Shown here: in pieces, positions 13,318-59,600 of the stretch
How positions within the stretch are numbered: the first letter of the stretch is position 1
How the letters are laid out: each line of letters starts with the position of its first letter
Origin: Acidobacteriota bacterium
GTDB lineage: Bacteria; Acidobacteriota; Vicinamibacteria; Vicinamibacterales; CAVVIG01
Length of the DNA stretch: 64,000 bases
Assembly (NCBI GenBank): GCA_003222395.1
Contig: QHWB01000036.1
Span: 62,001 to 126,000, forward strand
Direction of reading: 5' to 3'
Translations under genes and position numbers: made by a program
The notes under the pieces: model-generated
The model's input: only the letters and a program-made list of their open reading frames with translations
The model's database searches: none
Told to the model about the DNA's origin: nothing

Positions 13318-14615
13318 CGGAGATCGCTCGCCTGAAAGGTTCGCGCTACCTTCGGCGACGAATCGCGCTGTAGCGCGAGGCTTTCAGCCGAGCGGCCGCT
13401 TTCAGCCGAGCGGCCGCTTTCAGCCGAGCGGCCACGCTCGCCTGAAGGGCTCGCGCCACTCATCAGGGACCAGTACACGTCCACCATCGACGCGGCAAAC
13501 TGTGTCCACGTGAAGCGACTCGCGCGAAGGCACCCGCTATCGCGTCGCTGCTGCCACCGCGCCGGGTTGTCGGAGCGTTCGCGCAGCAGCGCGGTCACAG
13601 TCGCCTGCCACGCGTCGACGTCGCCGGCCGCGCAGTACTCGGCGGCGGATCCACCGACCTCGCGCAGCACCGGGAGATCGCTCGCCACCACCAGTGTGCC
13701 TGACGCCATCGCCTCGACGAGCGGCAGCCCGAAGCCTTCGCGCTCCGATGGCAGCAGGACCAGCGCCGCGCGGCGATAGAGCGCCGCGAGGATCGGGTCG
13801 TGGACGCCGTTCACCGCGACGAGGCGGTCCGCCAGACCGGCGTCGCTCGCGATTCGCTGCTGCTGCGGGGTCAGCGAATCGCCGACGTGAACGAGGCGCA
13901 CATCGGGAAAGTCGTTCCGCACCGCTGCGCAGATGCGCAGCAACACATCAATGCGCTTGCGCGGTACGGTGCTGCCGACGTGAAGAATCTCAATCGCGCC
14001 GGGCGGCGATTGCGCGAGCGCCGCCGCCTCGCGATCGCATGCGGGATTGGGCGCGGGCGCGAAGATGCGGGTCACGCCGAGCGGCACGACGGTCACACGA
14101 TCGGCCGGCACGAGTCCGCGTCCGACGAGCTCGGTGCGGACCGCCGTCGAATCGCAGGTGACGCGCGCTGCGCGCTGCAGCCCGGCGAGGATCTTGCGCG
14201 TCATCGTTCGAAACACGGACGATCGCCGCTCGCGCTCCGGCTCCAGCACCGAGCGAAACGCGTCGAGGTCGTGACACGTGACGACCGTTCGGTCCCCCGG
14301 CAGCACGTGCGCCAGGTGCGCGTAGCTGTGGTCGACGATGTGGAACACGTCGAAGTCGTCCTTGAGGCGCTCGAGCGTCTGCGGATACCGCCAGAAGCGG
14401 TTCATGAAGCGATCGCCGCTGAACGCCGTGCGCGTGCGGCCGACCAACGGAACGCGCGTCAGCCGGCGCTCGAACGGCGGACGCACGAGCGACGCGATCA
14501 CACCGGCACGCGACCACGGCCGTAGCTCTTCGTACAGCAGCCAGGCGACGCGGTCCATGCTCGGCCACTGCTCCTGAAGAAAGTCGGCGCAGATCGCGAC
14601 GCGCAGCGGCCTCAT
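13314..14615 (-). CDS. Glycosyltransferase family 4 with repeat-derived C-terminal tail
   Basis: A 433-aa GT4 protein. EX7E lies in EGFGLPLVEAMASG, and HVGSTVPRKRIDVLL marks the donor domain. The start ATG (MRPLRVAICADF) overlaps the upstream stop by ATGA; an upstream extension of the frame lies inside the neighbouring gene. After the catalytic domain the last 45 or so residues are encoded by a dispersed palindromic repeat, including three tandem GRSAES hexapeptides from an 18-bp tandem repeat. The tail therefore looks acquired rather than functional. Confidence 0.85.
   Translation of the reverse strand: MRPLRVAICADFLQEQWPSMDRVAWLLYEELRPWSRAGVIASLVRPPFERRLTRVPLVGRTRTAFSGDRFMNRFWRYPQTLERLKDDFDVFHIVDHSYAHLAHVLPGDRTVVTCHDLDAFRSVLEPERERRSSVFRTMTRKILAGLQRAARVTCDSTAVRTELVGRGLVPADRVTVVPLGVTRIFAPAPNPACDREAAALAQSPPGAIEILHVGSTVPRKRIDVLLRICAAVRNDFPDVRLVHVGDSLTPQQQRIASDAGLADRLVAVNGVHDPILAALYRRAALVLLPSEREGFGLPLVEAMASGTLVVASDLPVLREVGGSAAEYCAAGDVDAWQATVTALLRERSDNPARWQQRRDSGCLRASRFTWTQFAASMVDVYWSLMSGASPSGERGRSAESGRSAESGRSAESLALQRDSSPKVARTFQASDLR
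13322..13457. repeat. Two-armed palindromic repeat with internal 18-bp tandem expansion
   Basis: The left arm CGCTCGCCTGAAAGG and a right-arm core TAGCGCGAGGCTTTCAGCC enclose a short spacer. The segment GCTTTCAGCCGAGCGGCC is then repeated three times in tandem (period 18). The whole element is read in frame as the C-terminus of the glycosyltransferase that ends at 13314. Confidence 0.8.
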
Positions 14616-22802: not shown

Positions 22803-22865
22803 CCACGAAACACACGAAACCCTTGGAATAGTTTCGTGCGTTTCGTGCTTTCGTGATTTTCGTGG
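22803..22865. repeat. Inverted TTTCGTG/CACGAAA repeat array
   Basis: The gap between the wzt-like gene and the methyltransferase holds CCACGAAACACACGAAAC facing GTTTCGTGCGTTTCGTG and a final TTTTCGTGG, which can fold into a long hairpin. It could attenuate transcription inside the operon. No gene is seen in this 144-bp gap. Confidence 0.65.
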
Positions 22866-22902
22866 TGCCTGCAATCGGTCCCGATTTGGCAACGACGTAC
22901 GA

Positions 22903-24221: not shown

Positions 24222-25079
24222 TCAGATGTAATCCGCGAACGTCTGCTCGACGGTGCGAAATGCGCGGACCGCCACCGCCACCATGGCGAACGTCACGAGC
24301 GTCGACAGACCGAGGCCGGCCCAGTCGAGCGGCCTGCCGAAGCACACGGCGCGGAACGCCTCGATGTAGCTCGCCATCGGATTGAGCGCGAGGAACACGC
24401 GCCATCTCGCCGGCACGAGGCTCGCCGAGTAGATCACCGGTGTCGCGAACATCCACAGCTGCATGAAGAACGGCACGATGTAGCGGACGTCGCGGTATTT
24501 CACGTTGACGGCCGCGAGAAATCCGCCGACGCCGGCGGCGAGCAGCAGGATGAGGCCGACGACCGGCACGAGCCCGACGAGCGTCCACGACACGTGTCCA
24601 CCGTAGCGCGCCATCAGCAGCGCGAGGCCGACGGCCGCGATCAGAAAATCGACCAGACCCGAGAGCACGGCAGCGCCGGGAATGATCATCCGCGGGAAGT
24701 ACACCTTCGTGATCAGGTTGGGGCTGCCGACGACGCTGCCGGAGCTCGCGCCGACGCCGGCCGCCATCAGCGTCCAGGGCAGAATCCCGGCGTACGCAAA
24801 CAGCGGATACGCGACGCCGTCCGACGGCACGCGCGCCAGCTTTCCGAAGAACAACGTGAACACGATCATCGTCATCGCCGGCTGGAGCACCGCCCACGCG
24901 ATGCCGAGCACGGTCTGCTTGTAGCGAACCTTGATGTCGCGCCACGCGAGAAAATAGAACAGCTCGCGGTGCTCCCAGAGCTCGCGCAGCTCGGCGCTCA
25001 GCTGCGGTCGCGTCGATCTGATCGCAATGTGAATCTCGCTGGTTGCCGGTTGCTGGGGGCTGGTTGCTGGGAGATTCAT
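24222..25079 (-). CDS. wzm: Polysaccharide ABC transporter permease (Wzm-type)
   Basis: A 285-aa ABC-2 type membrane protein with six hydrophobic segments. The cytoplasmic FYFLAWRDIKVRYKQTVLG element and NLITKVYFPRMIIP loop are characteristic of O-antigen/teichoic acid exporters. The first 14 residues (MNLPATSPQQPATS) are encoded by a heptamer repeat array, so a native start may have been further downstream. It pairs with the Wzt-type ATPase. Confidence 0.9.
   Translation of the reverse strand: MNLPATSPQQPATSEIHIAIRSTRPQLSAELRELWEHRELFYFLAWRDIKVRYKQTVLGIAWAVLQPAMTMIVFTLFFGKLARVPSDGVAYPLFAYAGILPWTLMAAGVGASSGSVVGSPNLITKVYFPRMIIPGAAVLSGLVDFLIAAVGLALLMARYGGHVSWTLVGLVPVVGLILLLAAGVGGFLAAVNVKYRDVRYIVPFFMQLWMFATPVIYSASLVPARWRVFLALNPMASYIEAFRAVCFGRPLDWAGLGLSTLVTFAMVAVAVRAFRTVEQTFADYI
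25039..25079. repeat. Heptamer repeat array (GGTTGCT family) at the wzm start
   Basis: Imperfect 7-bp units of the type GGTTGCT/GGTTGCC/GGGGGCT run through the start of the permease gene. The same family occurs upstream of the anti-sigma gene at 36231-36290. Confidence 0.6.
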
Positions 25080-31525: not shown

Positions 31526-31684
31526 GGACGCTCGGCTGAAAGCCTCGCGCTACATGCAGATTTGCGATAGCGCGCCTCAAATTCGCGGTAGCGCGAGCCT
31601 CACCTTTCGCGGTAGCGCGAGCCTCACCTTTCGCGGTAGCGCGAGCCTCACCTTCGCGGTAGCGCGAGCCTTTCAGGCGAGCGT
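31526..31684. repeat. Palindromic element with four-copy 24-bp internal tandem repeat
   Basis: The left arm GGACGCTCGGCTGAAAGCC, then TCGCGCTAC, is followed by a 24-bp unit beginning TTCGCGGTAGCGCGAGCC and ending TCACCT, repeated about four times, and the right arm GAGCCTTTCAGGCGAGCG. It lies between two glycosyltransferase genes and encodes the C-terminus of the upstream one. No CRISPR-like unique spacers are present. Confidence 0.8.
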
Positions 31685-36230: not shown

Positions 36231-36290
36231 ATTGGGTTCTTGGTTCAGGGTTCGGTTGCTGGTTGTTGGAGGCTGGTTGCTGGGACTGAA
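36231..36290. repeat. Heptamer repeat array (GGTTGCT family)
   Basis: Imperfect 7-bp units GGTTGCT, GGTTGTT, GGAGGCT, GGTTGCT follow the sigma factor gene. The same heptamer family appears at 25039-25079. Confidence 0.6.
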
Positions 36291-36296
36291 GTCGCA

Positions 36297-36502
36297 AGCG
36301 TAAGCGAGCCGCGACAGGTGCGCGGACGTGGGGCCTTAAGCCATAAACCTGATTCGGAGGACGACGCCGCGAATTACCGCGGCGAGCGTAAGCGAGCCGC
36401 GACAGGTGCGCGGATGTGGGGCCTTAAGCCATAAACCTGATTTGGAGGACGACGCCGCGAATTACCGCGGCGAGCGTAAGCGAGCCGCGACAGGTGCGCG
36501 GG
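36297..36502. repeat. 88-bp tandem repeat, about 2.3 copies
   Basis: Copies start at 36297, 36385 and 36473 (exact 88-bp period). Copies 1 and 2 differ at only two visible positions (GGACGTGG/GGATGTGG and GATTCGG/GATTTGG). Each unit contains a CGCGGC...GCCGCG inverted repeat spanning the unit boundary. With the heptamers it fills the sigma/anti-sigma gap; no gene is seen here. Confidence 0.9.
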
Positions 36503-36518
36503 GGTGGGGCCCCGCGCA
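36495..36518. other. Strong GC hairpin before the anti-sigma-like gene
   Basis: A 9-bp stem TGCGCGGGG/CCCCGCGCA with a 6-nt loop lies 12 nt before the ATG at 36531 and overlaps the last partial copy of the 88-bp repeat. It could act as a terminator-like or translation-attenuating structure between sigma and anti-sigma genes. Confidence 0.5.
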
Positions 36519-36530
36519 CAAAATAAGAAA

Positions 36531-37010
36531 ATGTTCTGCGACGAAGCCCTCGATTCGTTGGAAGCGATCGCCGGCGGCGAGCTGACGGCCGACGGACGGA
36601 TTGCCGCGCACCTCGCGTCGTGCGCGAACTGCGCGGCGGCGCTCGAAAGCGCGCGGGCGCTCGAAACGATGCTGCGCGGCCGTCCCGTCCCCGCGGCGCC
36701 GGCGCAGTTCACGATACGCACGCTCGGCCGCGTGCGCCGCGCGCGCTGGCGCTCCGAGCAGTTTCTCGACGCCGGCTTCAACGTCGCGATTGGCGTCGTC
36801 GTGCTGGCGGTGATCGGCGGCATCTGGATGCTGTTGAACCGCAGCGGCCTCGCCGCGGTCAGCAACGACGCGGTCGATCTGTTCGGGAACGGCCTCGTCA
36901 CGTTCGCGCGCCGCATCGCGCCATCGCTGCCCCTCTACGCCGGCGCTGCGGGTCTGCTCGCGACCGCGCTCGGCATCTGGTGGTGGGCGGAACGAGATGT
37001 AACCTTGTGA
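36531..37010 (+). CDS. Membrane-anchored zinc-finger anti-sigma-like protein
   Basis: A 159-aa protein. The N-terminal zinc-finger region (MFCDEALDSLEAIAGGEL, then HLASCANC) has the HxxxCxxC anti-sigma pattern. Two hydrophobic segments follow (about 80-98, VAIGVVVLAVIGGIWMLL, and about 133-152). The ATG at 36531 gives the family N-terminus; an earlier GTG at 36504 lies in the hairpin. It should hold the upstream ECF sigma factor at the membrane. No ribosome-binding site is evident. Confidence 0.78.
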   Translation: MFCDEALDSLEAIAGGELTADGRIAAHLASCANCAAALESARALETMLRGRPVPAAPAQFTIRTLGRVRRARWRSEQFLDAGFNVAIGVVVLAVIGGIWMLLNRSGLAAVSNDAVDLFGNGLVTFARRIAPSLPLYAGAAGLLATALGIWWWAERDVTL

Positions 37011-37077
37011 TTGCGGATTGGGATCGCGGATTGTCGTGCCGCAATCGCCAAATCCGCCATCCCATCCGCAATCGGCG
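37011..37077. repeat. Heptamer inverted repeat (GCGGATTGGGAT type)
   Basis: ATTGCGGATTGGGATCGCGG and the facing CCATCCCATCCGCAATC can fold into a long hairpin immediately upstream of the adenine methylase start. It takes up the whole gap between the two genes. Confidence 0.6.
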
Positions 37078-41670: not shown

Positions 41671-44070
41671 TTGGAAACACCCTTGGAAGTTTACGAAACT
41701 CTCCCGATAGTTCCGCTGCGAGACGTCGTCGTTTTTCCTCACATGATGATGCCGTTCGTCATCGGACGGCCCTCGTCCACCCGGGCGCTGGAGCACGCGC
41801 TCCTGAAGGACAAGCGCATTTTCCTCGCGGCGCAGCACGATGCGTCGGTCGACGATCCGCGGCCCGAAGACATCTACACGATGGGCTGCGTCGCCAACGT
41901 CGTTCAGAGCCTGAAGCTGCCTGACGGCAACATCAAGGTCCTGGTCGAAGGGGTCGATCGCGCCCGCGCCGTCGAGTGGAAGGAAGACAAAGGCTTCTAC
42001 CGCGTCGTCGTCAAGGTGCTGCCCAAGCAGCGCGAGACGAGCGCCGACGCCGAGCAGACGATGAGCCGCGTCGTCGCGCTGTTCGAGCAGTACGTGAAGC
42101 TGTCGAACAACCTGCACTACGACGCAATGATCGCCGCCGTCCGCGTCGACGATCCCGGCAAGCTCGCCGACACGATTGCCGCGCACCTGCTCGTCGGCGT
42201 CGACGAGAAGCAGAACCTGCTCGAAATCATCTCGCCGATCGAACGTCTGAACCGCATCGCTGGCATCCTCGAGATCGAGGTGGACAAGCTCCAGGTGGAT
42301 CGCCGCATTCAGTCTCGCGTGAAGAAGCAGATGGAGAAGGCACAGAAGGAGTACTACCTCAACGAGAAGATGAAAGCGATCCAGAAAGAACTGGGCCGCA
42401 AGGACGAGAAGGGCAACGAGGTCGACGAGCTGAAGAAGAAGATCGAAACGGCGAAGATGCCGAAGGACGTCGAGGAGAAAGCCATCCAGGAGCTGAAGCG
42501 CCTGGAGGCGATGCCGCCGATGTCGGCCGAGGCCACCGTTTCGCGCAACTACCTCGATTGGCTGATTGCGGTGCCGTGGCACAAGAAGAGCCGCGAGAGC
42601 CGCGATCTGAAGCGCGCCGAAGAGATCCTCAACGAAGATCATTACGGGCTGGAGAAGATCAAGGAACGCATCCTCGAGTTCCTCGCGGTCCGCGCGCTGG
42701 TCAAGAAGCCGAAGGCGACGATCCTCACCTTCTCCGGACCGCCCGGAGTCGGCAAGACGTCGCTCGCCAAGTCGATTGCGCGCGCGATGAACCGTCAGTT
42801 CGTGCGCCTGTCGCTCGGCGGCGTCCGAGACGAGGCCGAGATCCGCGGTCATCGCCGCACCTACATCGGCGCGTTCCCCGGCCAGATCATCCAGATGATG
42901 AAGAAGGCCGGCACGATGAACCCGGTCTTCCTGCTCGACGAAGTCGACAAGATGTCGATGGACTTCCGCGGTGACCCGTCGGCGGCGCTCCTCGAGGTCC
43001 TCGATCCCGAGCAGAACCACACGTTCCTCGATCACTACCTCGACGTCGAGTACGACCTCTCGCACGTGATGTTCATCTGCACGGCGAACGTGCTCCACAC
43101 GATCCCGCAGGCGCTGCGCGACCGCATGGAAGTGCTGCAGCTCGCCGGCTACACGGAACTCGAGAAGGTCGAGATTGCCAAGAAGTTCCTCTCGCCGAAG
43201 GCGGTCGAAGGCGTCGGCCTGACGAAGGAGAACATCTCGTTCACCGACGAAGCGATTCAGACGGTGATCAACCGCTACACCCGCGAAGCCGGCGTCAGAA
43301 ACCTGGAACGGGAGATCTCATCGATCTGCCGCAAGGTGGCGCGCAAGGTCGTCGTCGAGGGCAAGAGCTTCGGCGAGGAGATCACGTCCGAGAAGGTCAC
43401 CCAATACCTCGGCGTGCCGCGCTTCCGCAACACGATGGCGGAAGAGACGAACGAGATCGGGATTGCGACCGGTCTCGCCTGGACCGAGGTCGGCGGCGAG
43501 ATTCTCGTGACGGAAGCGACGCTGATGTCGGGCAAAGGACATCTGACGCTCACCGGAAAGCTCGGCGACGTGATGCAGGAGTCGGCGCAGGCGGCAATGA
43601 GCTACGTGCGCGCGAATTCCGAGGAGTTCGGCATCGAGAAGGATTTCAACAAGCGCACCGACGTCCACGTCCACGTGCCGGAAGGCGCGATTCCGAAGGA
43701 TGGACCGTCGGCCGGCATCACGCTCGCGACGGCGCTCGTCTCGGCGCTGACGCGCGTGGCGGTGCGGAAAGACGTTGCGATGACGGGTGAGATCACGCTG
43801 CGCGGCAAGGTGCTGCCGATCGGCGGCGTGAAAGAGAAAGTGCTCGCCGCGCACCGCGCGGGCGTGAAGAACATCGTCCTGCCAAAAGACAACGAAAAGG
43901 ATCTGGCGGACATACCGAAAAACGTGCTGGACACGTTGAACGTCTACATGGTCCAGACGATGGACGAGGTCCTCAAGATCGCGCTGGCCGAGCCGCTCGC
44001 GGGCCGTCTGCCCGCGCCGGCGCAGCCGGAGCCGGTCGACGCGATCGTGGACGACACGATTACCCACTGA
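41671..44070 (+). CDS. lon: ATP-dependent protease La (Lon)
   Basis: A 799-aa Lon. It has an N-terminal substrate-binding domain (about 10-205), coiled coil, AAA+ domain with Walker [10 protein letters not shown] (about 357) and Walker [12 protein letters not shown], and a C-terminal protease domain with catalytic Ser in [11 protein letters not shown] and Lys in [17 protein letters not shown]. The chosen start is a TTG 7 nt after clpX; the downstream sequence is family-like from the fifth residue on, and no better start is visible. Confidence 0.96.
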
Positions 44071-44079
44071 TGCGGTCGT

Positions 44080-44132
44080 GATTCGGGATTGGGGATTGGG
44101 ATTCGAATCCCGAATCCCGAATCCCAAATCCC
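44080..44132. repeat. Heptamer inverted repeat (GGGATTC family) upstream of engB
   Basis: Units GGGATTG/GGGATTC face CGAATCC units around a GGGATTCGAATCCC palindrome, spanning the whole gap between lon and engB. The GTG of engB starts directly after it, so initiation may be affected by the hairpin. Confidence 0.7.
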
Positions 44133-44762
44133 GTGAAAATCGAGGCCAGCTTCGTTCGAAGCGCTGCGAGCGCAAGCGATCTGCCGCGCGACGGCCTCGC
44201 TGAAATCGCGCTCGTCGGCCGTTCGAATGTCGGCAAGTCGAGCCTGATCAACGCGCTGGTTCGTCAGCGTCTCGCGCGCACGAGCGCCGCGCCGGGCAAG
44301 ACACGGCTGGCCAACATCTATCGAGTCGCACGCGGCGGCCGCGAGTCGCTGTATCTGGTCGATCTGCCCGGATACGGGTACGCGCGGGGCGATACGAGCG
44401 CGTTTGCTTCGCTGACGCGCGCGTACTTTGGGCAGGACACGCGGGATAGGCGGGAAGGGAAAGCCCCTCCCGCCCGACGATCCGCGTTGCTCGTCGTCGA
44501 CGCGCGGCATCCGGGACTCGAGAACGACCTGGCGGCCTGGAGCTGGTTGACCGACAACGTTGCGACGCGAGCGATCGTCGCGACCAAGATTGACAAACTG
44601 TCGCGCGAGGAACGGCTGCGCGCGATGCGCACGATCGAAGCCGTGTTTGAACATCCCGCGACCGCCGTGTCGGCGGAAACGGGCGAAGGACTGGACGAAC
44701 TGTGGAAACTGATCGACCGACTCACCAACAAGACATCCGGGGGAACGAAGACGTCCGGCTGA
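44133..44762 (+). CDS. engB: Ribosome biogenesis GTP-binding protein EngB (YsxC/YihA)
   Basis: A 209-aa GTPase needed for 50S subunit assembly. G1 is GRSNVGKSS (about 30), G3 LVDLPGYG, and the G4/G5 positions read ATKIDKL and SAETGEG. The GTG start has no ribosome-binding site and abuts a heptamer hairpin. Its last 61 bases overlap the proposed start of rho. Confidence 0.94.
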
Positions 44763-54041: not shown

Positions 54042-54311
54042 ATGAAACCAGCGATCCATCCGAAGTACTACGATGTCGAGGCGAGGTGCGCCTGCGGCGC
54101 CACCTGGAAGACGCGTTCGACGAAGCCTGAGCTGCACCTCGAAATCTGCTCGAATTGCCACCCGTTTTTCACCGGACGGCAGAAGCTGATCGATACCGAG
54201 GGGCGCGTCGAGCGGTTCACGAAGAAGTTCGGGGCGCAAACAGCTGAAGGCCGGAAGACCGCCGCAGCAGCGAAGAAAGCGACTGCCAAGAAGACGGCTG
54301 CCGCACGATAA
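54042..54311 (+). CDS. rpmE: 50S ribosomal protein L31
   Basis: An 89-aa L31 of the zinc-binding type: Cys residues in CACGATW and [10 protein letters not shown] are the metal ligands. The conserved core (about 1-66) is followed by a Lys/Ala-rich tail ([16 protein letters not shown]), an extension common in GC-rich phyla. A TATACT sequence at 54028-54033 could be a -10 element that would give an almost leaderless mRNA. The ATG at 54042 fits better than 54024. Confidence 0.95.
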
Positions 54312-54408
54312 AAGTCGGAAGTACGAAGTCTGAAGTAAGAAGCACTTCCAATCTCGTACTTCGACGTCGAGCGCTTCGTACTTCAAACTTCGAACTTCAA
54401 ACTTTCAA
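54312..54408. repeat. Heptamer inverted repeat (ACTTCGA family) between convergent genes
   Basis: Units like GAAGTAC, GAAGTCT, GAAGTAA face CTTCGTA, CTTCAAA, CTTCGAA units in the opposite direction, forming a long potential hairpin between L31 and the MrfB-like gene. It also encodes the last few residues of the latter. A role as a bidirectional terminator is possible. Confidence 0.7.
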
Positions 54409-55684
54409 TCCTCACCAGCTTTCGGTCCAGCCGCGCGAGACGGTGATGCACCGCCCGCGTCCACGTCGTGGGCGCGGGGTACGCCGCCGCTTCCAGCCCT
54501 CGCAACGCAAATGTCTTCGCCGCCGCGAGGTCGCGCACGCGGTGCTCATGATGAATCGCGAGCGCCTCGTTCGCTTCGCGGGCGACAATCTCCGGGCAGC
54601 CGCGGATGTGGAGGAGCTCGCGCCAGCAGCGCGCCGCTTCGTCGAATCGACGAACGCGGCGCCAGGCGATGGCCAGCGCCCGAAGGGCGCCGATTTTCGT
54701 CGCATCGAAGGCGCCAGCCGGTGCCGCCGACAAGGCTATCGCGCGCTCGAACGCTTCGCGCGCCTGACCATCCATTCCGGCGCGTGCGAATACCTGTCCC
54801 AGCGCGAGCGCTTCCCGCGCGGTGCGCGCTTCGGCCGAACCGGTGCGCGCGAGATGAAACAGGCGCGATGTGAGCGCCGCGAGCGTGAGCAAATCGAGCC
54901 GATTGTGCTCGAGGACGGCAACGAGCGGCTCGACGTTCCCGGTGCGCACGAACTGGAAGTAGCGCGCCGGGACCTCGAATCCGTCGACGTCCGCCACTCG
55001 TCGCGCGCCGACGACGTGCTTCTCGAGCGACGACAGCGAACAATCGCCCAGATTCCAAAACCGCCGTGCCGCGTGCAGCACGTCGACGTGCGGAACGTGG
55101 CCGCCCGTCCACTCCAGCCGGTGAAACAGGTAGCGCGTCTCGAGCAGAGGCGCGTCGAACGACTTGCCGTTGAAGGTGACCAGCGCGCCTGCGCCGTTCA
55201 GGATTTCGGCGACCGTCTCGAGCAGCGGGCGCTCTTCGCGGCTCGCCGTGACCAGGAACTGCCGGACCATGAACGATCCATCGTCCGCAAACGATCCGCA
55301 TCCGACGAGAAACGCGTGCGTGCCGGCGCCGCCGTTCAGGCCGGTCGTCTCGAGATCGAAGAAGACGAACGGCGGGCGCGCGAGCGCGTTTGCAGTGAAC
55401 AGCGGCGCGTACGGCGCCGCGTGAGCGAGGCACTCTGCCATCGCGCCGATCGTCTCGCGCCCGTGCCGTACGCCCCGCTCCCAGCGGCGTTCGACGACGA
55501 AGCAGTCGCCGGATCGCGTGCCGCCCAGCGCGGACAAGTCACGGGATTCGGGATTCGGGATTCGGGATTCGCCGCGATTTGTGATTCGGGATCCGTTCTC
55601 ATGAGGGATTCGCGAAATTGCGGCGTCGGCGACGGACTTTTGCGTCGTCACGATGCCGCGGATGCGATCGGCCAGGGAGCTCAA
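54383..55684 (-). CDS. mrfB: MrfB-like RNase H-fold 3'-5' exonuclease with TPR region
   Basis: A 433-aa protein. The nuclease core has FFDLETTGL (DxE, near residue 100), LVTFNGKSFDAPLL and HNRLDLLTLAALTSRL with further acidic residues. TPR-like helices fill the C-terminus. This matches YprB/MrfB of Bacillus, the exonuclease partner of the helicase MrfA in repair of mitomycin-type damage. The TTG start at 55684 overlaps the helicase stop (TTGA). Residues near 20-45 (SRIPNPESR) are encoded by a heptamer array, and the last residues by another. Confidence 0.8.
   Translation of the reverse strand: MSSLADRIRGIVTTQKSVADAAISRIPHENGSRITNRGESRIPNPESRDLSALGGTRSGDCFVVERRWERGVRHGRETIGAMAECLAHAAPYAPLFTANALARPPFVFFDLETTGLNGGAGTHAFLVGCGSFADDGSFMVRQFLVTASREERPLLETVAEILNGAGALVTFNGKSFDAPLLETRYLFHRLEWTGGHVPHVDVLHAARRFWNLGDCSLSSLEKHVVGARRVADVDGFEVPARYFQFVRTGNVEPLVAVLEHNRLDLLTLAALTSRLFHLARTGSAEARTAREALALGQVFARAGMDGQAREAFERAIALSAAPAGAFDATKIGALRALAIAWRRVRRFDEAARCWRELLHIRGCPEIVAREANEALAIHHEHRVRDLAAAKTFALRGLEAAAYPAPTTWTRAVHHRLARLDRKLVRIESLKFEV
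55543..55611. repeat. Heptamer array (GGGATTC family) inside the MrfB-like gene
   Basis: GGGATTCGGGATTCGGGATT and degenerate following units lie in frame near the 5' end of the exonuclease gene. The same family is present upstream of engB. Confidence 0.75.
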
Positions 55685-58323
55685 AACGGTTGAATCTCCG
55701 CGTCCTGCCCGCGCGAGATCTCGTTCGCGGCGATGGGCGGGATGAGCAAGTCGAGGATTCCGAGCGCGGCCGCCTTCGCGAGCGGTCCGGTGTTCCCGAC
55801 GGGCCCGACGCACCCCGGGCATCCGTTCTCGCAATCGCACTCGGCAATCAGGCGTCGCGTGCGGGCGAGCAAGTCGTCGTGCATGTCGAACAGCGCCGCG
55901 CTGAATCCGATGCCGCCGGGGTAGTTGTCGTAGATGAAAATGCGAGGAGATCGTTCTCGATCGGCTGAAGCGTCGCGCTCCATCGAGTCGATCGAGATGC
56001 CGACGTCGTGCCGATCGCACATCAGCAGCAGCTGTGCGACCTGACGCATCGCGAAGGAGAGCGCGACGACGCCGTCGCGGCGGTCGTCCGACGCATACGG
56101 CAGCAGGCCCATCACCGTCGATGGAATCGTCAACCAGTACGACGTCGTATGCATCTGCTGTTCGGGCAGATCGAGATCGCCCGAGCCGACGTTCTCGTTC
56201 GTGTAGAACTTGATCTTCTTGAAACCGACGACGCGAGAGACGACGTGGACTTCTCCATGTGCGCGGACGCTCGCCTGAAAGGCCCGCGCTACAACCGCAT
56301 CTGCTGCCGCGACGCGCGCTAGACCCGCATCCCGTGGCGCGGCCCTTTCAGGGCGGCGATCCTCCGCGAACACATCGATCGGCGTCACTTTCGTATACGT
56401 GATCGCGTCCGTGTAGTAGTCGCAATCGATCTCGCGCACGAATGCCTTACGTCCGTCGAAGTCGAGGCGCTCCACCTGATACAGCTTCGCCTCGACGATG
56501 TAGATCGCCTTGGGGTGCAGCGTCGCGGGACCGCTGGTGAAGTCGGTCTCGCCGATGACGCGCGCCTCGTCGGTCGTGTCGACGACGACGAAGTTGTCCG
56601 ACGAAACGGATCGCAGGCTTACGGCATCAGCTGGATACGACTCATTGGTCCAGGCCCATTTTTCTATTTCGCCCCCGCTCGGGCACACCGCCGCCGCGCT
56701 CGCCGGTTCGCGGTCGCTCGAGCCGCTGGCGCTGTCCCCGCGCATATCTAGAACAGAACGTCGCAGTTCGGGATGGACAAGGCCCTGCTCTGCGAGAACC
56801 GCGAGGATCTCCTGCACATCATGACCTTCGACGTTGCTCATGGCACCCCGAGGACCAGTCGAGGAGTCTCGGCCGAATTGTTCGCTTCCCGTGAACGGCA
56901 GCTCGAACGCCGCGCACTTGACGTGGTCGACGAGGATGTGAAGGTTGTCCGGATCGATCAGTGCCCGCTCCGGCGAGGCATCGAAGAAGTACGACGGATT
57001 TCTGACGACGAACTGATCGAGCGGCGCGCTGCTGGCGACCATCACCGCAGCGGATCGCCCGCTCCTTCGCCCGGCGCGCCCGGCGCGCTGCCACGTTGCG
57101 GCGATCGTGCCTGGATAGCCGGCCATTACCGACACGTCCAGCGCGCCGATGTCGATGCCGAGCTCGAGCGCGTTGGTCGAGACGACGGCGCGAACGGTCC
57201 CTTCGCGCAGCCCTCGTTCAATTTCTCGGCGTCGGTTCGGCAGGTATCCGCCTCGATAGCCACGAATGCGCGCATCGCCCGATCCCGCCGCCCCTGGCTC
57301 CCGGCCCGTGCCGGGCACGCCTTCGAAATCGTCCTTCAAGTACGTCGTCAGGATCTCCGTCGACAGCCGGCTTTGCGCGAACACGATCAGCTGCAGATCG
57401 CGCTTCAGGAATTCAGACGCGATTCGCCGCGTCTCGCTCAGGTACGAGCGCCGGATTCCCAGCTGGTGGTTGACGACCGGCGGATTGACGAACAGAAAGA
57501 ACTTCTCGCCGCGCGGCGCACCGCTTCGGTCCACCAGCTCGAACGGCTGCTCCGTCAGGCGTTCCGCCAGCTCGCGCGGGTTGGCAATCGTCGCAGATGA
57601 ACAAAGGAATACCGGATTCGATCCGTAGTGTCTGCAGATGCGGCGCAGCCGTCGCAGGACATTGCACAGATGGCTGCCGAAGACGCCGCGGTAGGCGTGC
57701 AGCTCGTCGATGACGACGTAGCGCAGGTTTTCGAAGAGCTTCGCCCATCGCGGATGGTGCGGCAGGATGCCCGAATGCACCATGTCCGGATTGCTCAGCA
57801 CGATATGAGCGCGCGCCCGGATCGTCCGCCGGGCGTCCTGCGGTGTATCGCCGTCGTACGTGAAGACGCCGATCTGATCGCCAGAGGCGATGGCGATCGT
57901 TTCGCACATCGTCTGCAGCTCGGCGAGCTGGTCCTGCGCAAGCGCTTTCGTCGGAAACAAGTACAGCGCGCGACTCGACGGGTCCTGCAGGACGGCGTTC
58001 AGGACAGGCGCGTTGTAGCAGAGCGTTTTTCCCGATGCGGTCGGCGTGATGACGACGACGTTCCGGCCGTTGATCGCGTGTTCGATCGCATCGGCCTGAT
58101 GCGTGTAGAGCTGCTTGATGCCGCGGGCCTCCAGCGCGTTCGTCAGCCGGCGGTCGAGCGGCTTCGGAAAGGGGACATACTGCGCTGCCAGCGCGGGAAG
58201 ACGCCGAAGCGCCGTGACGTGGAGGTCGGGAGTATCCGGCCGTTCGCCGACACGGCCGGACGCCAGTCGCTCCAGCGCTGCATCGAGCGCGTTCTCGGGG
58301 TGAGACCGTCGAGCCGGGAGCAT
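55681..58323 (-). CDS. mrfA: MrfA-like DEAD/DEAH helicase with C-terminal DUF1998
   Basis: An 880-aa superfamily 2 helicase. Seen: motif I TPTASGKT (about 90), motif II VIDELHAY, motif III SSATIANP, motif VI QRAGRAGR, and a C-terminal DUF1998 region with the zinc-binding-type CDCENGCPGC. This domain order is that of YprA/MrfA, and the coupled gene encodes the MrfB-like partner. Two segments (about 485-525 and 660-700) are repeat-derived in-frame insertions. The ATG at 58323 is preferred over a TTG at 58353. Confidence 0.88.
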   Translation of the reverse strand: MLPARRSHPENALDAALERLASGRVGERPDTPDLHVTALRRLPALAAQYVPFPKPLDRRLTNALEARGIKQLYTHQADAIEHAINGRNVVVITPTASGKTLCYNAPVLNAVLQDPSSRALYLFPTKALAQDQLAELQTMCETIAIASGDQIGVFTYDGDTPQDARRTIRARAHIVLSNPDMVHSGILPHHPRWAKLFENLRYVVIDELHAYRGVFGSHLCNVLRRLRRICRHYGSNPVFLCSSATIANPRELAERLTEQPFELVDRSGAPRGEKFFLFVNPPVVNHQLGIRRSYLSETRRIASEFLKRDLQLIVFAQSRLSTEILTTYLKDDFEGVPGTGREPGAAGSGDARIRGYRGGYLPNRRREIERGLREGTVRAVVSTNALELGIDIGALDVSVMAGYPGTIAATWQRAGRAGRRSGRSAAVMVASSAPLDQFVVRNPSYFFDASPERALIDPDNLHILVDHVKCAAFELPFTGSEQFGRDSSTGPRGAMSNVEGHDVQEILAVLAEQGLVHPELRRSVLDMRGDSASGSSDREPASAAAVCPSGGEIEKWAWTNESYPADAVSLRSVSSDNFVVVDTTDEARVIGETDFTSGPATLHPKAIYIVEAKLYQVERLDFDGRKAFVREIDCDYYTDAITYTKVTPIDVFAEDRRPERAAPRDAGLARVAAADAVVARAFQASVRAHGEVHVVSRVVGFKKIKFYTNENVGSGDLDLPEQQMHTTSYWLTIPSTVMGLLPYASDDRRDGVVALSFAMRQVAQLLLMCDRHDVGISIDSMERDASADRERSPRIFIYDNYPGGIGFSAALFDMHDDLLARTRRLIAECDCENGCPGCVGPVGNTGPLAKAAALGILDLLIPPIAANEISRGQDAEIQPF
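56264..56361. repeat. Palindromic element inserted in frame inside the helicase gene
   Basis: The left arm GGACGCTCGCCTGAAAGG, then CCCGCGCTAC, and a right arm GCGCGGCCCTTTCAGGGC enclose about 45 bp. It encodes about 30 residues (RPERAAPRDAGLARVAAAD, then ARAFQASVRA) between conserved parts of the C-terminal region. The frame is kept. Confidence 0.75.
56717..56770. repeat. About 55-bp dispersed sequence, copy in the helicase gene
   Basis: CTCGAGCCGCTGGCGCTG, then CGCGCATATCTAGAACAGAA and CGTCGCAGTTCG, closely resembles the segment at 61645-61699 by eye (roughly four of five bases identical). It encodes part of a low-complexity insertion in the helicase (RRSVLDMRGDSASGSSD). Confidence 0.5.
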
Positions 58324-59467: not shown

Positions 59468-59600
59468 AGGAAATTGCTGATTGCAGATTTCAGATTGCTG
59501 ATTGATTGGTCGGATTGAATTCAATCATTCAGCAATCTGTAATCAATCTGCGATCAGCAATCAATCAGCAATCAGCAGTCAAAAATCAGCAATTTCAGCG
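59468..59600. repeat. Heptamer inverted repeat (ATCAGCA family) between convergent genes
   Basis: AAATTGCTGATTGCAGATTT on the left and CAGCAATCAATCAGCAATC plus AATCAGCAATTTCAG on the right face each other over 130 bp. It is AT-richer than the coding DNA around it and can form a long hairpin. It occupies the whole convergent gap. Confidence 0.75.

Follow-up and report, generated by a model that had tools for sequence, protein, structure and literature searches.

A 62-nt gap between a lon protease gene and the gene that follows it is filled by seven-base units arranged as facing halves, and it raises two questions: (i) are the heptamer arrays found in gaps between genes, whose sequences differ from place to place, instances of one phenomenon and (ii) by what process could they have come to lie there. 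The window considered here (the whole stretch of DNA that was analyzed, 64,000 nt, 66.6% G+C) belongs to a genome of 7.74 Mb in 118 contigs, designated G000. Among the named loci, several of its best protein matches lie in MAGs labelled Acidobacteria (seven adjacent genes in L104 at 57–77%, others in L058 and L068), so the genome is probably of Acidobacteriota. An initial annotation had listed eight places in it with heptameric units, most of them as facing halves. Short tandem units are present at all eight, but 22803 holds no clean heptamer: its TTTCGTG words lie 8–9 nt apart and TRF reports periods of 9 and 17. The share of facing halves was overstated, since halves of the same unit are found at five of the eight (22803, 37011, 44080, 54312 and 59468) and 25039, 36231 and 55543 are essentially one-armed. 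A strict ungapped scan of the window (score ≥12) returns five period-7 runs, at 44076, 44104, 54380, 55542 and 59473, and the four other listed places are weaker or degenerate by this measure. The arrays and some of their neighboring genes are as follows.

22803–22866, no strand: facing array CACGAAA/TTTCGTG, spacing 8–9 nt (RNA fold z −2.54)
25039–25075, forward strand: single arm of GGTTGCT units, close to the start of a reverse-strand ABC2-type transporter gene whose start call may be too long
36231–36284, forward strand: degenerate single arm GGGTTCT/GGTTGCT behind an ECF sigma factor gene
37009–37057, no strand: facing array of GGATTGC units upstream of a D12 adenine methyltransferase gene (z −1.77)
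41743–44070, forward strand: Lon protease gene upstream of the 44080 array (own gene call; Pfam Lon_C, LON_substr_bdg, AAA)
44080–44132, no strand: facing heptamer array (GGGATTC/GGGATTG)n-(GAATCCC)m filling the 62-nt lon–engB gap and directly adjoining the GTG start of the next gene (z −3.7)
44133–44762, forward strand: EngB-type GTPase gene downstream of the 44080 array (Pfam MMR_HSR1)
54042–54311, forward strand: ribosomal protein L31 gene, one flank of the 54312 array (Pfam)
54312–54404, no strand: facing array of GAAGTNN units (z −6.15)
54383–55537, reverse strand: RNase_H_2 gene, other flank of the 54312 array (Pfam)
55542–55571, forward strand: single arm of four perfect GGGATTC units (sequence scan)
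59470–59596, no strand: long facing array of GATTGCT/GATTTCA units, flanked by convergent SDR and zinc ADH genes (Pfam; z −6.39)

The genes flanking these arrays are a mixture of housekeeping and metabolic genes by Pfam; judging by its position, we take the one at 44133–44762 to be engB. The arm at 55542–55571 has the RNase_H_2 gene on one side and a DEAD/MZB helicase gene on the other (Pfam). This exonuclease gene and the helicase gene adjoin one another at 54383–58323, with the GGGATTC array between them, a pair that resembles the mitomycin repair genes MrfB/MrfA. Longer tandem repeats also occur in the window: an 88-nt repeat at 36297–36511 (2.4 copies at 96%), directly behind the degenerate heptamer arm, in the gap that follows the ECF sigma factor gene; a 24-nt repeat (TTCGCGGTAGCGCGAGCCTCACCT) at 31582–31671, mostly intergenic (3.8 copies at 98%); and a perfect threefold 18-nt repeat within a called gene at 13380–13433.

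A period of seven common to differing sequences had been proposed from the window, and it holds genome-wide. In 864 kb of the genome's own sequence (41 pieces) there are 55 period-7 runs, a further listed run being a run of N (56 in all), versus 2 in a Markov-3 control, and periods 4, 5, 8, 10, 11 and 13 give 1–8 runs versus 1–5 in the control. In 127 kb of intergenic sequence, drawn from 1.264 Mb by a simple gene finder of our own whose crude calls may include some wrong genes, period 7 accounts for 57 runs, period 8 for 20 and each remaining period from 4 to 13 for 0–5, with 0–1 in the control. Two tandem copies of GGGATTC occur 100 times in the 7.74-Mb genome and their reversed control not at all. 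That control, the telomere-like heptamer CTTAGGGCTTAGGG, occurs 3 times in G010 and 24 times in G022, and doubled GGGATTC is absent from both. The excess is neither confined to the window nor an artefact; arrays are also present in two single-contig relatives (G027 and G039) and in named isolates. Seven is the dominant peak in G000 but is not exclusive, as periods 8 and 9 also occur.

The arrays lie mainly between genes. The midpoint falls outside called genes for 49 of 69 period-7 runs, in sequence of which about 90% of bases are called coding, and inside them for 20 of 69, versus 17 of 20 period-9 runs. Among 608 gaps of at least 30 nt, arrays occupy 38 of 420 tandem, 7 of 118 divergent and 6 of 70 convergent gaps; the deficit in divergent gaps (7/118 versus 44/490 in the others) is not significant (p 0.36). 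In tandem gaps the array begins a median of 8.5 nt past the upstream stop and ends 11 nt ahead of the next start. The sequence left over beyond the outermost arrays has a median of 17 nt, near the ordinary gap median of 25 nt, as though the array had come into a gap that was short to begin with. Over seven classes, the 5′ side of the unit is nearer the gene edge in 64 of 77 arrays and the 3′ side in 13, a count that is not independent of the pair polarity described below.

Unit sequences are diverse. The 69 period-7 arrays of G000 fall into at least 26 classes, many without G tracts; among the 26 are GGGATTC and its variants, GATAGCT/GACAGCT, GATTGCT, GAAGTNN, GGTTGCT and GGGCAAA. G027 has 33 classes in 50 arrays and G039 has 20 in 40, and 12 of 83 classes are found in more than one genome. 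Period-8 units include GGGTAATC, ACAGAGAC and ACGAAGAC. Variation within a class is concentrated at few positions; the last two of GAAGTNN hold 28 of 32 changes. Self-complementarity of the units was rejected as a cause of the hairpins, as the units do not exceed random intergenic heptamers in palindromic character.

The order of the facing arms is fixed. If a unit is written U and its reverse complement U′, then GGGATTC followed by GAATCCC is U..U′, and the direction is set by class. All 10 GGGATTC-class pairs in G000 agree (some have an arm in common), and the GATTGCT and GGGTAATC pairs also follow a fixed direction. By pattern, with overlaps counted, U..U′ of GGGATTC has 23 matches in G000 and 9 in G014; the reverse order U′..U is found in none of 297 genomes, and U..U′ itself in two of them. 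GATTGCT, which has no G tract, shows U..U′ in 8 of 40 genomes and U′..U in none of the 40. At 80 named loci with three tandem copies of GGGATTC, many from Xanthomonadaceae and their relatives, U is followed by U′ within 90 nt in six and the reverse is seen in none. One pair of opposite sign (ATCAGCT grouped with ATTGCTG) was set aside as an error of grouping, the pair being taken to represent a different class. With this polarity, the strand that runs 5′ to 3′ into the gap has an identical unit whichever side it comes from. Many pairs enclose a non-repeat spacer of up to ~120 nt. Such polarity is already known for the GGGAATC unit of Xanthomonas, for which the excerpted text of Rehm et al. (PMC4692102) gives 70 and 75 convergent pairs; in the literature searched, we found no statement of polarity for units without G tracts.

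We tentatively propose, with rather less than even confidence, that the arrays are near-neutral, fast-renewing minisatellite hairpins formed by unit addition inward from both gap edges. Each arm would lengthen inward from its side of the gap as a short unit was added again and again to the 3′ end, in slippage-type synthesis during the filling of a break or gap between two genes, and both strands would come to read the same unit toward the center. The arms would afterwards be renewed as units are gained and lost, and natural selection would mainly remove arrays from genes, the individual sequence having no specific function. It is from the polarity that we infer the step to 3′-end addition. Inward growth of this kind would produce a single order and arms independent of each other, and would leave little of the gap outside the arrays. 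The long spacers count against simple end-to-end joining, which would leave none, and units common to many sites in one genome are not explained by purely local growth.

The lon–engB gap can be followed across relatives. A Lon C-terminal query matches all 40 genomes searched, G000 among them, and an EngB-type gene lies next to lon in 26 of 28 close orthologues; the two genes overlap in G002 and G016, which looks like an empty site. Period 7 is best, with p ≤0.025, in 10 of 24 testable gaps (own included), as listed here with the other gaps.

Period 7: GGGATTC in G000; GGAGGCT type in G012 and G011; GATTTCA/GATTGCA type in G010 and G020; GGGCTTT in G030 and G025; GGGCTCA in G034; GGGTCCT in G038; GGAGGCC type in G026
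Best at period 9: G019 and G007; G015 was called 4 and looks 9 by eye
Weak at period 7: G003 and G022
Other, weaker periods: G004, G029 and G036
No period signal: G008, G027, G028, G031, G037 and G039

Related genera carry hairpins of different units at this orthologous gap. Within one genus, G003 is weak at 7 and G019 is best at 9. A 9-nt unit of the GGGCNGGNN type is seen in the hairpins of G007, G015 (by eye) and G019. A Stenotrophomonas locus with clpP, clpX and lon (L063) was rejected as a shared site because the array there follows a different gene. When G000 is excluded, period 7 is significant in 9 of 23 lon–engB gaps versus 17 of 197 tandem gaps of eight relatives (similar test, 100 shuffles; p 0.0003); the relatives do not count as independent samples in this comparison, and the choice of site was prompted by the array it holds in G000. 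Folded as RNA, lon gaps give z of −2.9 to −5.8 in seven of eight cases and −0.2 in G019, the strong folds arising because the gaps contain inverted repeats.

These observations bear on an alternative in which selection retains the hairpins for their structure in intercistronic RNA (as message stabilizers, transcript-end or coupling elements) and any pairing unit suffices. The enrichment at lon–engB in many genera despite differing units and the strong folds from different units are both expected if so, and the excerpts of PMC4692102 report that G4-forming Xanthomonas repeats mark transcript starts and stops more than control repeats do. However, pairing leaves the polarity unexplained, as both orders would be allowed; the arms do not covary; 8 of the 24 testable lon gaps have no significant period; and divergent gaps do not differ significantly from the others. 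The terminator role raised by the initial annotation finds no support in a T tract, five or more T in 9 nt being present at 1 of 38 outer ends. In the same excerpts, Rehm et al. describe the Xanthomonas repeats as mostly transcribed, with a regulatory role not found. We consider selection for RNA structure unlikely.

The relationship between the two arms weighs on a second alternative, in which single arrays arise by polymerase slippage, the inverted partner of an arm is copied from it by snap-back template switching, and seven is favored because it equals a polymerase contact length. This account was proposed by Mrazek and colleagues, as cited in the excerpted texts of PMC4692102 and PMC4679880. 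Blocks of identical variant units within arrays (L056 and L059) do look like slippage, and the peak at period 7 is sharp. Both polarities would be expected, however, and the reverse order is absent from the 297 and the 40 genomes searched; periods of 8 and 9 in relatives also fit poorly. In the 17 of 32 pairs that were usable, the arm match is 0.908 versus 0.904 for shuffled unit order, with 28% of permutations as high, and no mirror symmetry or base-by-base covariation is seen. The arms are thus no more mirror-like than shuffled ones, which speaks against copying of one from the other, but later turnover could have erased an original symmetry and hidden such an origin. Snap-back copying is, on this evidence, a doubtful account.

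Congeneric genomes offer a closer comparison. G027 and G039 are syntenic across the compared segments, and their 21 orthologous gap pairs hold arrays in both genomes in 3 cases, in G027 alone in 3, in G039 alone in 1 and in neither in 14. The units differ in all three shared gaps (for example, GGTACCC versus GCGTTCG). Conserved occupancy by this strict count has p 0.053; a value of 0.0017, reached only by adding two weak by-eye hairpins (5, 1, 1 and 14), was set aside. That the word changes between related species at one spot while its direction stays constant hints at one shared way of making. The pair also bears on whether these are mobile hairpins of the MITE or REP type that a transposase inserts as complete elements. 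G027 and G039 have units in common (GGGAGTC and GGCAGTC, for example) yet differ at orthologous gaps, and identical units recur at many sites within one genome, the GGGATTC class forming 15 arrays; both facts would suit mobility. But loops and arm lengths vary among hairpins of one class (by eye), unit number varies, no conserved ends were seen and unit variants differ between arms, all of which makes insertion of whole hairpins quite improbable.

A more specific variant of end addition is that the arrays are scars of a bacterial activity that heals breaks between genes: repeats of 7 nt, or at times of 8 or 9 nt, would have been added to exposed 3′ ends before joining, the units being drawn from a lineage-specific vocabulary and no RVT_1-type reverse transcriptase taking part. 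The polarity is that of a head-to-head fusion of two telomere-like ends, the unit being identical on the two 3′ strands that run into the gap; we nonetheless hold this version to be very doubtful. Among 11 genomes searched, RVT_1 is absent from the array-rich G027 and G039 (one contig each) and Ku is absent from G014 and G025, both of which have arrays. The arrays therefore require neither reverse transcription of the RVT_1 type nor end-joining by Ku, and both telomerase-like reverse transcription and Ku-dependent joining were rejected on these grounds. A literature search for a link to telomerase-like bacterial defence found no paper. The common replication or repair process first suggested for the arrays is made likelier by the uniform polarity of unrelated units and by the differing orthologous units, although the evidence points to no particular replication or repair enzyme.

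G-quadruplex formation, as proposed for GGGNATC repeats, is scarcely probable: four copies of GGGATTC do contain the four G tracts of the sequence rule, as do the units at 44080 and 55543, but the other six places and many classes do not, so the arrays are not filed as a G4 family, and GATTGCT, GCTATCA and GAAGTAC share period, location and polarity without any G tract. The polarity rule and the differing orthologous units likewise speak against it. As a general cause it is unlikely; for GGG units alone it could still apply.

Units of the STRR repeats of heterocystous cyanobacteria (CCCCART, TTGGTCA and CAACAGT) are intergenic tandem heptamers. Set beside them, the present arrays are of the same form, in another phylum and with more unit classes; a literature search on STRR heptamers in intergenic sequence found no paper. 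Heptameric intergenic repeats are, then, a known kind (Xanthomonas, Nostoc, Beggiatoaceae and cyanobacterial STRRs). As given in the excerpts of PMC4692102, the heptamers reported for Nostoc (GGGGA(C/T)T) and for Xanthomonas (GGGAATC) are very close to GGGATTC/GGGATTG of G000, and the likeness to cyanobacterial heptamers noted at the outset was apt. According to the same excerpts, the repeats of both share with ours the heptameric unit, intergenic location, convergent pairs, a 5′ side by the ORF edge, variants concentrated at some positions and variable unit number. Unlike theirs, so far as those excerpts go, the 69 arrays of G000 represent at least 26 classes of unit, many lacking G tracts, and 8- and 9-nt relatives occur. 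For 83% of Xcc repeats a G-rich repeat is kept at the same place in Xac (PMC4692102, excerpted), whereas units here differ at orthologous gaps between related genera.

Two further systems are known to us from excerpted texts. The TAACTGA repeats of Beggiatoaceae (PMC4679880) are likewise intergenic heptamers of patchy phylogenetic spread but have one unit and are nearly all direct (169 direct sets and one indirect repeat). The tandem repeats of Borg elements (PMC9879509) likewise evolve rapidly and arise independently but are archaeal and extrachromosomal. What G000 adds is the large number of unit classes within a single genome, the same architecture built from non-G4 units, and a difference of units at conserved sites. 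Beyond what we found in print are the fixed polarity, including that of a unit without G tracts, the differing units at the orthologous lon–engB gap and the non-mirroring arms. A polarity rule for unrelated units, together with differing orthologous units, leads to testable predictions on repeat birth. A bacterial excess of seven-base repeats was reported in 2007, as cited in the excerpts of PMC4692102 and PMC4679880, and the reason for it has been a standing question since (as cited in PMC4692102).

GGGATTC arrays also occur in other settings. Three tandem copies are contained in 14 IMG/VR contig stretches (L297–L310). In Rhodanobacter (L061, L092 and L115), GGGATTC arrays lie in the loop of a larger GAGCGGGC-type hairpin (by eye) and look as if inserted into another repeat element.
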